Notes under the pieces: model-generated
Databases searched by the model: none
The model's input: the letters and a program-made list of their open reading frames with translations, nothing else
What the model was told of the DNA's origin: nothing
Assembly: GCF_030733745.1 (NCBI RefSeq)
Contig: NZ_JASHIK010000010.1
Coordinates: 1 to 64,000 of the forward strand
Direction of reading: 5' to 3'
Length of the DNA stretch: 64,000 nt
DNA from: Stappia sp. MMSF_3263
GTDB taxonomy: Bacteria; Pseudomonadota; Alphaproteobacteria; Rhizobiales; Stappiaceae
Part shown: positions 13,798 through 20,125 of the stretch, piece by piece
Layout of the letters: each line of letters starts with the position of its first letter
How positions within the stretch are numbered: the stretch's first letter is position 1
Made by a program: the position numbers and the translations under genes

Positions 13798-15808
<2,011 letters not shown>

Positions 15809-15861: not shown

Positions 15862-16758
15862 GTGCCGCTGGACTGGGACAAATTGCGGATCTTCCATGCG
15901 GCGGCGCAGGCCGGCAGCTTCACGCATGCCGGCGACACGCTGAACATGAGCCAGTCCGCGGTCAGCCGGCAGGTGAGCGCGCTTGAGCACGATCTCAAGG
16001 TGCCGCTCTTCCACCGGCACGCGCGCGGCCTGCTCCTGACCGAGCAGGGTGAGGTGCTCTACCGTACCGCGCGCGAGGTGTTCATGAAGCTGGAGGCGGC
16101 GCAGGCGCGCCTCACCGACAGCCGCGAAAAACCCTCCGGCGTACTCAGGATCACCACCACGGTCGGCCTCGGCTCGACCTGGCTGACCCAGCGCCTCAAC
16201 GAGTTCGTCGATCTCTATCCGGAGATGGAACTGCGGCTGATCTTCGACGACGACGAGCTGGACCTTGGCATGCGCGAGGCCGATGTTGCCATCCGCCTGC
16301 GCCAGCCGACCCAGCCGGACCTGATCCAGCGCAAGCTGTTCACCGTGCATTTTCATCTCTACGCGGCGCCCGGCTACATCCAGCGCTTCGGCGCGCCGAA
16401 GTCGATGAACGATCTCGACGGCCACCGAATCATCACCTTCGGCGAGCAGGCCCCGCCCTATCTGCGCGACATGAACTGGCTGGAAACGGCCGGCCTGCCG
16501 CTTGGCGAGAGCCGCCGCTGCGTGCTGCGGATCAACAACGTGGTGGCGATCAAGCGGGCCGTTCAGCGCGGCATCGGCATCGCCATCCTGCCGGACTACA
16601 TCAACGAGGACGGTTCCGGTCTCGTGCAGCTGATGCCCGAGGCGGAAGTGCCAAGCTTCGACACCTATTTCGTCTATCCCTCGGAATTGAAGAACACCGC
16701 GCGCATTGCCGTCTTCCGCGACTTCCTGCTGTCCAAGGCCGAGCGCTGGACCTTCTGA
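15862..16758 (+). CDS. vtlR: LysR-family regulator, LsrB/VtlR-like
   Basis: A 298-residue LysR-type regulator with an N-terminal winged HTH (residues about 5-62, SFTHAGDTLNMSQSAVSRQVSAL) and a co-inducer domain. The opening LDWDKLRIFHAAAQAGSFTHAG-type sequence and the position straight after trxB match LsrB of Sinorhizobium and VtlR of Brucella and Agrobacterium. VtlR activates abcR sRNA genes, and a good AbcR-like sRNA lies 300 bases downstream here. GTG is used as the start, with AGAGGG 5 bases before it. The name rests on neighbourhood and general resemblance, not on a database search. Confidence 0.82.
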   Translation: MPLDWDKLRIFHAAAQAGSFTHAGDTLNMSQSAVSRQVSALEHDLKVPLFHRHARGLLLTEQGEVLYRTAREVFMKLEAAQARLTDSREKPSGVLRITTTVGLGSTWLTQRLNEFVDLYPEMELRLIFDDDELDLGMREADVAIRLRQPTQPDLIQRKLFTVHFHLYAAPGYIQRFGAPKSMNDLDGHRIITFGEQAPPYLRDMNWLETAGLPLGESRRCVLRINNVVAIKRAVQRGIGIAILPDYINEDGSGLVQLMPEAEVPSFDTYFVYPSELKNTARIAVFRDFLLSKAERWTF

Positions 16759-17009
16759 ACGCAGGTTCCCCAAGGCGCCCGGCGCTTCCCGAGAAAGCAT
16801 TCGCTCCCCGCGATATTGCGTCGCACATTGCACAGGCAATGCGCGGCCATGCGCGAAAACGCGTCCCCGGGCACGGAAGAAGGTCGTCATGCGACCCCTG
16901 TAATTCGCGTGAGACATGCTTTGGAAGCGGGCAGAGCGCCTTCGCTTCAGCCACATCGCGGTGTCCGGCGAGGCAAAGATGACGCAGCGCGCGGCGTGGT
17001 CCCCGTTTT

Positions 17010-17068
17010 TTGCATAGCAGACTTGCGCGACTGCATCTTGCATAGGCACGTTGTGCACTGCATATAAG
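17010..17068 (+). promoter_or_regulatory. promoter region of the sRNA with repeated TGCAT motifs
   Basis: Four TGCAT units occur at 17011, 17032, 17039 and 17059, two of them inside identical TTGCATAG octamers (17010-17017 and 17038-17045) spaced 28 bases. TATAAG at 17063-17068 is a good -10 box; no good -35 stands 17 bases upstream, as expected for an activator-dependent promoter. The repeats are plausible binding sites for the LysR protein encoded just upstream. Confidence 0.55.
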
Positions 17069-17074
17069 CAACAG

Positions 17075-17209
17075 GCTGTTGGTCTGCTTCGTCGCTACCT
17101 CCTCCCAGCGACGTCTGATGCGACCAGCTGTTCCCCTCTGGAAGGTGATTGCGCCACCGATGGTGGCAAAATCAAATAACTGCCGGGCCTTGTGCCCGGC
17201 ATTTTTTTT
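17075..17209 (+). ncRNA. abcR: AbcR-like trans-acting small RNA
   Basis: About 135 nt from the estimated start (7 nt after TATAAG) to the end of the T-run. Three features make it an sRNA. A hairpin with a perfect 7-base stem (17090-17096 with 17107-17113) exposes ACCUCCUCCC, an anti-Shine-Dalgarno loop. A second CCAG/CUGG-bounded loop exposes UGUUCCCC (about 17124-17141). An 8-base terminator stem (17181-17188 with 17194-17201) is followed by eight T. A small GCCACC/GGTGGC hairpin lies between. AbcR RNAs of Rhizobiales bind Hfq and silence ABC transporter mRNAs through such C/U-rich loops. The position after an LsrB/VtlR-like gene supports this family. The 5' end is an estimate; 16759-17009 holds nothing else recognisable. 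Confidence 0.78.
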
Positions 17210-17263: not shown

Positions 17264-18340
17264 TCACTCCCGGACCGAAAGACAGATCTTGCCGACATGG
17301 GCCTTCGACAGGAACGCTTCCTGGGCGATGCGCAGGTCTCGCAGCGGATAGGTCCTCGCGACCACCGGGCGGATTTCACCCGCCTCGATATAGCGGACAA
17401 GATCAGTGAAGACGCTGGCCGGCTGGTGGGTGCAGCCGAAGAAGGCAAGGTCCCGCAGATAAAGCGTGCGCAGGTCCAGTTCCACGATGGGGCCCGCGAT
17501 CGCGCCGGCCGTCACGTAGCGCCCGCCCGGACGCAAGGCCTCGATCAGCCCCGGCCAGCTCGCGCCGCCGACAAGGTCGAGAACCACGTCGAACGCCTGC
17601 GCGGGAGGCTCCGCCTCGCGTGCCAGCACCTCGTCGGCACCAAGTTCGCGAAGCGCATCCGCCTTCTGCAGGCTGCTCACGGCGGTGACATGGGCGCCGC
17701 GACGCCGGCTTAGCTGAATCGCGGCGGAACCGACTCCGCCCGATGCTCCCGTCACCAGCACCCGCTCCGCCCCAAGCCCGACCCTCTGGATCATCCCCTC
17801 GGCCGTGGAGAACGCGCAGGGAAACGAGGCCAGCTCCACATCCGAAAGATCCGACTGCACGGCAACCGCATCCTCGGCCGCAACGCAGGTATACTCGGCG
17901 AAAGCGCCGTCGCGTTCGGACCCGAAAGTCGACGCACCGACCCCCGTATCCGCATCGGCGACCACCTGGACGGCTCGAACGAGCACCCTCTCGCCCACCC
18001 TTGCGGCAGGCACGCCAGCGCCGACCGCAAGGATCTCGCCGCAGCAGTCAGCTCCCTGGATGCGGGGAAACGACAGCGCCGCGCCGGACCAGCCTCCGTC
18101 CTTCCCCACCAGATCGCCGTAACCGTCCGCCGCGCCCGAGGCGGTATCGCCCCGCACGGCCTTTGAATACCAACCCGTACGCGTGTTGACGTCGGTATTG
18201 TTGAGCGCGGCGGCGCCGACCCGGATCAGCACCTCACCGGCCTGCGGAACAGGCACCGGCAGATCCTCGCGCCATTCCAGCTTGTCCAGCCCGCCATGGC
18301 CGGTCAGAACCACGCCATTCATCGTCTCGGGGATCGTCAT
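17264..18340 (-). CDS. zinc-type alcohol dehydrogenase-like/quinone oxidoreductase family protein
   Basis: A 358-residue MDR-superfamily oxidoreductase using NAD(P)H. The N-terminal GroES-like domain starts VPVPQAGEVLIRVGAAALNNTDVNTRTG; the Rossmann fold has VTGASGGVGSAAIQLSRRRGA near residue 195. The N-terminal region contains GADCCGEI rather than the full set of structural and catalytic zinc ligands of classical alcohol dehydrogenases, so it is closer to zinc-free quinone oxidoreductases. The substrate is unknown. It is divergent from a TetR gene with two identical-geometry operators between, so it is probably derepressed by a toxic carbonyl or quinone-like inducer. Confidence 0.85.
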   Translation of the reverse strand: MTIPETMNGVVLTGHGGLDKLEWREDLPVPVPQAGEVLIRVGAAALNNTDVNTRTGWYSKAVRGDTASGAADGYGDLVGKDGGWSGAALSFPRIQGADCCGEILAVGAGVPAARVGERVLVRAVQVVADADTGVGASTFGSERDGAFAEYTCVAAEDAVAVQSDLSDVELASFPCAFSTAEGMIQRVGLGAERVLVTGASGGVGSAAIQLSRRRGAHVTAVSSLQKADALRELGADEVLAREAEPPAQAFDVVLDLVGGASWPGLIEALRPGGRYVTAGAIAGPIVELDLRTLYLRDLAFFGCTHQPASVFTDLVRYIEAGEIRPVVARTYPLRDLRIAQEAFLSKAHVGKICLSVRE

Positions 18341-18413: not shown

Positions 18414-18986
18414 ATGACGGACACGATGACGAGGATTGCGGCGGGACTGGAGGGCGCCTTTGCGCGCCAGGGCTTTGCGGTGCCAAGCGTGGAGGACCTG
18501 CGCGACGCTGCAGGGGTGAGCCTGCGCACGCTCTACAAATATGCCCCCTCACGCGACCGGATGGTTCGTATCGCCCTTGAGCATCGCCATCGTCGCTATC
18601 TCGACCATGTCTTTACGGACCTGCCGGCAAGCCATGAGGCGGCGCTCACAGCCTTGATCGAGCGTATCGGTCTGTGGATGGAGCGCGAAACCTCCCACGG
18701 ATGCCTGTTCCATGCCGCCGTGGCGGCGAACCCGGACGACAAGCAACTTGTTGCCCTGCTTGAGCGGCACAAGTCGGACATGGCGGAACGCGCGGCCGAG
18801 GCAACAGGGCTTGCCCGTCGGAAAACAGAGCTGATGCTTGTCATCGAGGGCCTGACGCAAAGCTGGCCGCTCTACAGGGAACAGGCAACGGCCAGTGCCA
18901 GGACCCTGGTCATGGCGCTTTGGCGCCTTGAGCAGGACACCGGGAGCGCTGAACGCCAGGACGCCTCCCCGCCCCCTCACATGTAG
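18414..18986 (+). CDS. TetR/AcrR-family repressor
   Basis: A 190-residue TetR-type protein with an HTH at about residues 22-48 (PSVEDLRDAAGVSLRTLYKYAPSR) and a C-terminal ligand domain containing SHGCLFHAA. No Shine-Dalgarno sequence is evident before the ATG at 18414; a second in-frame ATG follows at 18426. The short distance from the operators leaves room for only a very short leader. It is divergent from the dehydrogenase gene it most likely represses, and its last codons overlap the 3' end of the convergent msrP by 10 bases. Confidence 0.85.
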   Translation: MTDTMTRIAAGLEGAFARQGFAVPSVEDLRDAAGVSLRTLYKYAPSRDRMVRIALEHRHRRYLDHVFTDLPASHEAALTALIERIGLWMERETSHGCLFHAAVAANPDDKQLVALLERHKSDMAERAAEATGLARRKTELMLVIEGLTQSWPLYREQATASARTLVMALWRLEQDTGSAERQDASPPPHM

Positions 18987-19939
18987 AGCTTCTCGCCCTC
19001 CATCCCCTTGTAGAGGTCGGCGACATAATCGCCGTAGCCGTTGAAGAGCTGCGTCGGCACGCGGTTGCCGCTCGGCAGCAACTGCTCGCTCGCCTGGCTC
19101 CAGCGCGGGTGGGGAACCTCCGGGTTCACATTCGCCCAGAAGCCGTATTCGGCCGCCTGTACCTCCTCCCAGAAGCTCACCGGACGTTCCTCGGTGAAGG
19201 AGAAGCGGGTGATCGACTTGATCGACTTGAACCCGTATTTCCACGGCACGGCGAGGCGCAGCGGCGCGCCGAACTGCTTGGCCAGCGGCTTGCCGTAAAC
19301 ACCGGTCACCAGGAAGGCCAGCTCGTTGGTCGCCTCGGCGATGGTCAGCCCCTCGACATAGGGCCAGGGGTACCAGGAGGCACGCTGGCCGCTGGCCGTG
19401 TCCGGGTCGAGGAAGGTTTCCATGCGCAGGTATTTCGCCCCCGCCTTGGGGGCCGCAAGCCGCACCAGTTCCGCCAGCGGAAAGCCCGTCCACGGCACCG
19501 CCATCGCCCATGCCTCGACGCAGCGCAACCGATAGAGCCGTTCCTCAAGGCTCACCTTCTTCAACAGGTCGTCGATACCGATGGTCTGCGGATTGTCGCA
19601 GAGCCCGTCGATCTGCACCTCCCAGGGTCGGATCTTCAGCGCCTGCGCCGCCGAGGCGATCTGCTTGTGCGAGCCGAACTCGTAGAAATTGTTGTACATC
19701 GAGGTCACCTTCTCGGGGGTGATCTCCCGGTCGAGGGTGAACGCCTCGTTGCGGCTCGCAGGATAGAGTGAGGCGCTCGGGTCTTCCTCCGCAAAGGCCG
19801 GGCGCGAAAAACCGCCACCGGCGAGAAGCGCGCCAGCGCCTGCAAGTCCGGCGATCACCGAGCGCCGGTTGAAGAAGACGGCCTCGGGCGTCGCCTCGGA
19901 TTCAGGCAGCTCCCAGCCGCGCTTGCGAATGATGTTCAT
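18977..19939 (-). CDS. msrP: protein-methionine-sulfoxide reductase catalytic subunit MsrP
   Basis: MsrP is the periplasmic molybdopterin enzyme that repairs oxidised methionine in envelope proteins. The 320-residue precursor starts at an ATG (19939) with GAGAGGAC upstream. A twin-arginine signal (NRRSVIAG near residue 25, then a hydrophobic stretch and ending near AFA) directs folded export. The molybdenum ligand is Cys140 in RLRCVEAWAM, and GGWYPWPY-like and YGFKSIKSI family motifs follow. Its usual membrane haem partner MsrQ is not beside it; the neighbours are a TetR gene and an MFS exporter. Confidence 0.94.
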   Translation of the reverse strand: MNIIRKRGWELPESEATPEAVFFNRRSVIAGLAGAGALLAGGGFSRPAFAEEDPSASLYPASRNEAFTLDREITPEKVTSMYNNFYEFGSHKQIASAAQALKIRPWEVQIDGLCDNPQTIGIDDLLKKVSLEERLYRLRCVEAWAMAVPWTGFPLAELVRLAAPKAGAKYLRMETFLDPDTASGQRASWYPWPYVEGLTIAEATNELAFLVTGVYGKPLAKQFGAPLRLAVPWKYGFKSIKSITRFSFTEERPVSFWEEVQAAEYGFWANVNPEVPHPRWSQASEQLLPSGNRVPTQLFNGYGDYVADLYKGMEGEKLYM

Positions 19940-20125
19940 TGCGTCCTCTCCCGCTTCATGCCTGCCGTCCTGAAGGTTTCCGCGCCGACACATGCGTGCC
20001 GGCCGCGGACGTCGTGGCGCCGAGCGTTGCTCCTCACCTAGCGCGCGAGACGCCTGCCGGCAAATCAAGTGCGGTTGAACGAAAGGTGCGGGCAGCGTGA
20101 AGAGCTACCGGGCAAAACGCTCCGC

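Follow-up and report, generated by a model that had tools for sequence, protein, structure and literature searches.

The window, a stretch of 64,000 nucleotides of Stappia sp. MMSF_3263, contains on its forward strand the gene trxB, coding for thioredoxin-disulfide reductase (14843..15808; TIGR01292, 405.9 bits, above the cut-off), and a gene for a LysR-type regulator (15862..16758). A predicted abcR-type sRNA gene (17074..17209) lies on the same strand, 315 nt past the stop codon of the regulator gene. This order, an sRNA after a LysR gene that follows trxB, had been described in the initial annotation, and the sRNA locus was confirmed as it had been read from the sequence.

The regulator matched PDB 9hh1 over its full length with 432 bits, against 112.5 bits for the next LysR structure; according to the deposition stated in PMC11975290, 9hh1 is LsrB of Agrobacterium tumefaciens, whose gene likewise stands after trxB and before abcR. 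The nearest relatives among the matches listed belong to Stappia (94% identity). In all of the 80 best listed loci, one of which (L020) is cut by the end of its contig, a TrxB match ended upstream of lsrB at a distance of at most 280 nt. The full-length match and the trxB neighbour support the assignment of the window regulator as an LsrB/VtlR orthologue, in agreement with the LsrB/VtlR-like character proposed for it previously.

After the sRNA, a quinone-oxidoreductase-like gene on the reverse strand (17264-18340) had a match in three of the 80 best listed loci (L003 and L004 at 89%, L025 at 41%, within the compared stretch). The next gene (18977-20068), presumably a molybdopterin-type oxidoreductase, had a match in many of these 80 loci. 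A local insertion of the 17264-18340 gene is possible.

Predicted structure, conservation and copy number of the sRNA

The predicted RNA is about 136 nt long, with the 5' end placed from the spacing to the -10 element. Its 5' domain (17078..17128) would be formed by a long-range helix, GUUGGUC/GACCAGC, supported by covariation, around a hairpin with the first anti-Shine-Dalgarno segment (aSD1), CCUCCUCCC, within its loop (17098..17106, read from the window as CCTCCTCCC). In the predicted fold a 7-bp stem, of the length given in the initial annotation, carries this C/U motif in a loop of 10 nt. The second segment (aSD2), UGUUCCCCUCUGGA (17129..17142, with TGTTCCCCTC at 17129-17138), is conserved, single-stranded or weakly paired, and is the same element as in the ar15 alignment. 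It had been described as a second C/U-rich loop: the segment is present, but a firm loop is not, as UGUUCCCC was predicted to be unpaired or in a weak 4-bp hairpin and would more aptly be called a largely single-stranded segment. In the published AbcR layout, aSD2 lies between stem-loops (PMC8844928). The rho-independent terminator (17181..17209) consists of an 8-bp stem (helix 3, 100% paired), a 5-nt loop and T8 at 17202-17209, matching the clean U8 terminator reported before. The minimum free energy of the sRNA was -55.2 kcal/mol, compared with -39.57 (sd 3.69) in 200 shuffles (z -4.24), none of which was as low. A generic sigma-70 promoter scan found no promoter, and a terminator scan gave two sites versus 1.4 in shuffles; the case for the sRNA is therefore based on its conservation in relatives and not on generic scans.

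Related loci were those of the best 80 LysR relatives listed (at least 80 exist). Forty-seven Stappiaceae copies of the sRNA were used to build a covariance model, which detected it on the forward strand downstream of lsrB in 69 of these loci, with E at most 3.1e-8, and scored 47-54 bits on the copies of the group whose LsrB carries a pair of cysteines (the cysteine-pair group, see below). The model recovered the same 72 places as a search with the motif TGTTCCC, and no others at that strength; 25 of these matches are independent of the model, whereas its own 47 copies necessarily match. The core CCTCCC of aSD1 was present in 72 of the 72 copies and TGTTCCCCTCTGGA, the 14-mer of aSD2, in 67, a count biased by the gathering motif; the five exceptions were both copies in L007 and in L008, with one C fewer, and L050. 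A further 43 rows of the model were weak matches with E 0.007-0.99; the reverse strand accounts for 42, and most cover the terminator. No sRNA match was obtained in L035, L040, L045, L046, L048, L049, L052, L053, L058, L059 and L069. That of L035 is uninformative on loss because L035:5839-6444 reads N, and the other ten were covered by a short-motif search, the sRNA possibly lying elsewhere there.

The structure that was tested is the own consensus of the 47-row alignment, minus one helix left out. In it, 98.0% of the cells were paired versus 19-44% in slid controls, and 11 of the 20 pairs had changes on both sides; the 5' helices were paired in 96.4% (helix 1) and 97.5% (helix 2) of the cells, with double changes in 8 of 13 pairs. 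None of 500 shuffles reached the observed paired percentage, the double-change pairs, the double-change cells or the covariation score, and the count of further pair types was within the shuffle range (243/500). From alignment A2, comprising 27 of the 72 copies picked to span both groups, RNAalifold recovered the terminator and not the two 5' helices, so that the evidence for the 5' fold covers Stappiaceae only. The copies of the other group are shorter, and relative to them the Stappiaceae 5' domain has an extra enclosing helix. Both CCTCCC and TGTTCCCCTCTGGA were invariant across the 27 copies.

One copy was found in the own genome by DNA search, and the model placed it at 129.5 bits, the next match having 21 bits. 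In a survey of 87 genomes of the family, representing seven genera, 86 had a match and 83 exactly one; G076 and G086 contained a tandem pair about 277 nt apart and G042 had no match. The single copy seen in the window, which the initial annotation had set against the tandem pairs of many Rhizobiales, is thus confirmed genome-wide but is not an oddity, since it is the norm in Stappiaceae. In the order, 105 of 297 genomes matched at E <= 1e-4 with strict filters, and misses mean little because the model was built on Stappiaceae.

A weak second match was found in G063 (35.4 bits, G063:C4:88936-89043, reverse strand), on another contig than the first. Tandem abcR pairs were observed in two Stappia genomes (L007:4074-4484 and L008:4074-4485), each copy having its own promoter element and an aSD2 that reads UUCCCUC; in the pair of L007 the RNAs differ at 6 of 134 bases and the upstream 101 bases at 33.

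Relationship to AbcR and promoter element

No Rfam family reached in the window its gathering threshold, which is a curator's cut-off and not a biological property. The model of ar15/AbcR (RF02345) fitted the sRNA over its full length (1-112) with 21.4 of 40 bits (E 0.072), and CAGCUGUUCCCCUCUGG matched within this sub-threshold alignment; at E <= 10, ar15 also matched in 12 of 14 control genomes. Other sub-threshold fits were those of ar14 (RF02344, which we take to be NfeR1; 23.4 of 58.8 bits), JA04 (23.3 of 81 bits), SorX (22.8 of 46.6 bits, in the 3' part only and with the best E-value, 0.0061) and a CcsR1 fragment (15 bits). Since thresholds were not reached in the window, the orthologous locus was followed in relatives, and 20 of the 80 related loci were scanned with Rfam. 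ar15 passed at nine of them, each time directly downstream of lsrB, and no other family did, including ar14, with which the window sRNA has the CCUCCUCCC loop in common. Eight of the nine loci belong to the cysteine-pair group and the ninth is of Methylobrevis (L055). The eleven loci at which ar15 did not pass were seven of Stappiaceae (0/7), L026, L056, L074 and L045, the last of these being without a match to the covariance model as well. The Rfam check suggested in the initial annotation therefore had a divided outcome, sub-threshold in the window itself but positive for the syntenic sRNA in relatives. Because syntenic copies pass ar15, both motifs are common to the two groups and the stems covary, the assignment of the sRNA as a divergent AbcR is supported.

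Like AbcR1 and AbcR2 (alpha-r15, RF02345) of Sinorhizobium, Agrobacterium and Brucella, the window sRNA lies beside lsrB/vtlR, ends in a rho-independent terminator, has a candidate LsrB-type element, one base off the published one, about 60 nt upstream and presents the AbcR layout: the loop of the 5' hairpin carries aSD1, and aSD2, UUCCCCUC, occupies the stretch that separates stem-loops. It differs from them in its single copy, its longer 5' domain with the extra enclosing helix and its sub-threshold score. Alpha-r15 has been reported as always multi-copy in Rhizobiaceae and Brucellaceae, which describes those families and is not a condition for homology.

The putative promoter, TTGCAT-N17-CATATA (17038..17066, forward strand), was derived from the sequence and an ungapped alignment of relatives. 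The upstream TATAAG noted earlier was found at 17063-17068, inside GCATATAAGCAAC (17060-17072). VtlR directly activates abcR1 in Agrobacterium (PMC7486931), and Sinorhizobium meliloti AbcR1 is LsrB-dependent, with the element GCAT-N3-TG-N3-T at -61 to -49 (PMC8844928). In the window, GCATAGCAGACTT (17012..17024, forward strand) is one base off this element, with A instead of T at one position; a start of the RNA at 17074 would place it at about -62 to -50. The relaxed form GCAT-N3-[TA]G-N3-T was present in 72 of the 72 aligned related promoters versus 59 of 5000 random 60-mers, and the exact published element in 41 versus 28 of 5000, counts that are not independent as the promoters are mutually related. 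With 17 occurrences in the window, on both strands, the relaxed pattern is not specific alone. A dyad pattern with 8 spacer bases was found in 72 of the 72 promoters, in 147 of 20000 random 60-mers and at seven places in the window. An LsrB-type element thus appears to occupy the published promoter position and is a candidate LsrB site, and by analogy with the relatives LsrB may activate the sRNA.

Candidate targets and interpretation of the locus

Pairing with mRNA leaders was compared between 58 binding-protein and 24 LysR genes, corresponding to 82 of 102 loci; the 20 left out (14 binding-protein, 6 LysR) lacked a usable start or had a leader that was too short. Some of the chosen starts look wrong, and lsrB itself (L171) is among the LysR controls. 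aSD2 paired better with the binding-protein leaders (p 0.024), and so did the 16S anti-SD (p 0.007); the excess of aSD2 over 16S was not significant (p 0.36), and aSD1 had p 0.076. Shuffled arms gave as large a difference in 13 of 100 cases for aSD2 and in 86 of 100 for aSD1. Genome-wide, the pattern GAGGGGAA-N3-9-ATG occurred at 21 sites and the reversed pattern, which is not a gene-start control, at three. Sixteen of the 21 downstream frames were scanned, five very short ones being left out: two encode binding proteins and one each an ABC permease, an AzlD-type protein and an MFS transporter, while eight belong to other families (one LysR) and three to none. This transporter share is suggestive only.

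The best of the candidate targets, L215, encodes a binding protein (PF13433/PF13458); its leader has AGAGGGGAA directly before the ATG, and the protein has a match in 50 of 61 genomes of the family. From 30 orthologous loci, 21 leaders were readable; in the other nine, the stretch that was searched contained no ATG. GGGGA stood at most 22 nt from the ATG in all 21 leaders, which are mutually related and hence not independent counts; 12 of them had the full GAGGGGAA and none GGAGG. In the own genome, GGGGA was found in 7 of the 58 binding-protein leaders, L215 included, and in 1 of the 24 LysR leaders. These data hint at L215 as a target of the sRNA, and the conserved GGGGA could also be an ordinary Shine-Dalgarno sequence.

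Very probably, the locus is a Stappia LsrB(VtlR)-AbcR module, a reading that draws on what the comparison with relatives shows: the orthologous LysR, the conserved LsrB-type element and a conserved sRNA with covarying stems and two anti-Shine-Dalgarno segments. In S. meliloti, AbcR1/2 bind Hfq and repress by pairing at the ribosome-binding site (PMC8844928); control by LsrB, expression and silencing of targets are extrapolated from such relatives. In this module the element (about -62 to -50) would be bound by LsrB, which would activate transcription of the one sRNA of about 136 nt. Through aSD1 or aSD2, and probably with Hfq, the sRNA would pair to the ribosome-binding sites of uptake-gene mRNAs, among them those for periplasmic binding proteins, and block their translation.

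The sRNA might also be real and AbcR-like without being controlled by LsrB, driven for instance by sigma-H, the neighbourhood being history only. Such a case is known, as S. meliloti AbcR2 adjoins lsrB and yet depends on RpoH1 and not on LsrB (PMC8844928), and the window element deviates by one base from the published consensus; its location at the published position and the relaxed element in every aligned promoter, including those of both tandem copies in L007 and L008, make this explanation unlikely. It is considerably less probable that the region contains no independent gene and forms the terminator and 3' untranslated part of a trxB-lsrB mRNA. The common strand and the short distance to the lsrB stop would agree with this, but a promoter region is conserved directly upstream of the sRNA, and it moves with the sRNA where this is distant, namely in L023, L025, L028, L030 and L032, whose aSD2 lies +1215 to +2676 from the end of lsrB. 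Lowest of all is the probability that the sRNA merely resembles AbcR and is a member of a different C/U-loop family (ar14/NfeR1, SorX or CcsR-type): the sub-threshold scores of ar14 and CcsR1 and the E-value of SorX speak for it, but syntenic relatives passed ar15, at nine of the 20 loci scanned, and no other family, and UGUUCCCCUCUGGA is common to the ar15-passing group and the Stappiaceae copies.

Cysteines of LsrB and significance of the module

For Agrobacterium LsrB, an intramolecular disulfide between the conserved C144 and C273 was proposed, the trxB linkage was taken as a hint of LsrB re-reduction, and among single cysteine substitutions that of C273 only changed H2O2 sensitivity (PMC11975290). 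The window LsrB, on the other hand, has one cysteine (residue 220) and none at the four cysteine positions of the Agrobacterium protein, with valine at both the C144 and the C273 position. In the alignment, the pair was present in 21 of the 80 best listed loci and in Agrobacterium, and was lacking in the other 59 and in the window; 33 of 46 Stappiaceae-type LsrB loci had no cysteine whatsoever. The sRNA adjoins lsrB in 21 of the 21 loci with the pair and in 48 of the 59 without it. In the LsrB tree a single branch separated the cysteine-pair group from all other sequences (support 100/99, recovered in 100% of 200 bootstrap trees), the midpoint rooting giving no direction, gain or loss, for the pair. 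L046, titled Phyllobacteriaceae, lacks the pair and groups with Pinisolibacter. This set does not comprise Sinorhizobium and Brucella, for which PMC11975290 was relied on.

As C144 and C273 are absent, the window LsrB is probably not an intramolecular thiol switch of the Agrobacterium type; it would respond to a different signal or be constitutively active. The output of the module looks like that of standard AbcR and the input signal probably differs. It is slightly favoured on balance that trxB-lsrB-abcR works without the redox pair, that LsrB of Stappiaceae and of several further Hyphomicrobiales families would drive AbcR independently of thiols, and that the thiol switch is confined to one clade (Rhizobiaceae/Phyllobacteriaceae-type); if so, the trxB linkage would not be explained by LsrB re-reduction.

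A literature search, whose coverage leaves many subscription papers outside, listed no paper whose title deals with AbcR or LsrB in any of Stappia, Labrenzia and Roseibium. Modules of this kind are already known; this one is a variant by virtue of its single copy, longer 5' domain, sub-threshold divergence and, above all, cysteine-poor LsrB. The LsrB-AbcR circuit would be extended to Stappiaceae, where Rfam ar15 misses the window and the seven scanned loci. Being naturally single-copy, the system could show what AbcR does with no redundant sibling present. The split in the cysteines poses the question of whether LsrB is basically a redox sensor, as proposed for Agrobacterium and Sinorhizobium, or redox sensing is a feature of one clade, in which case the uptake circuit beneath it would function without the redox pair as well.

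Additionally, among the loci with no abcR match within the compared stretch, L040, L045, L046, L048 and L049 encode an LsrB whose cysteines lie near 219/221 and 266/268 rather than at 144/273, and L053 one with only the second of these sites.
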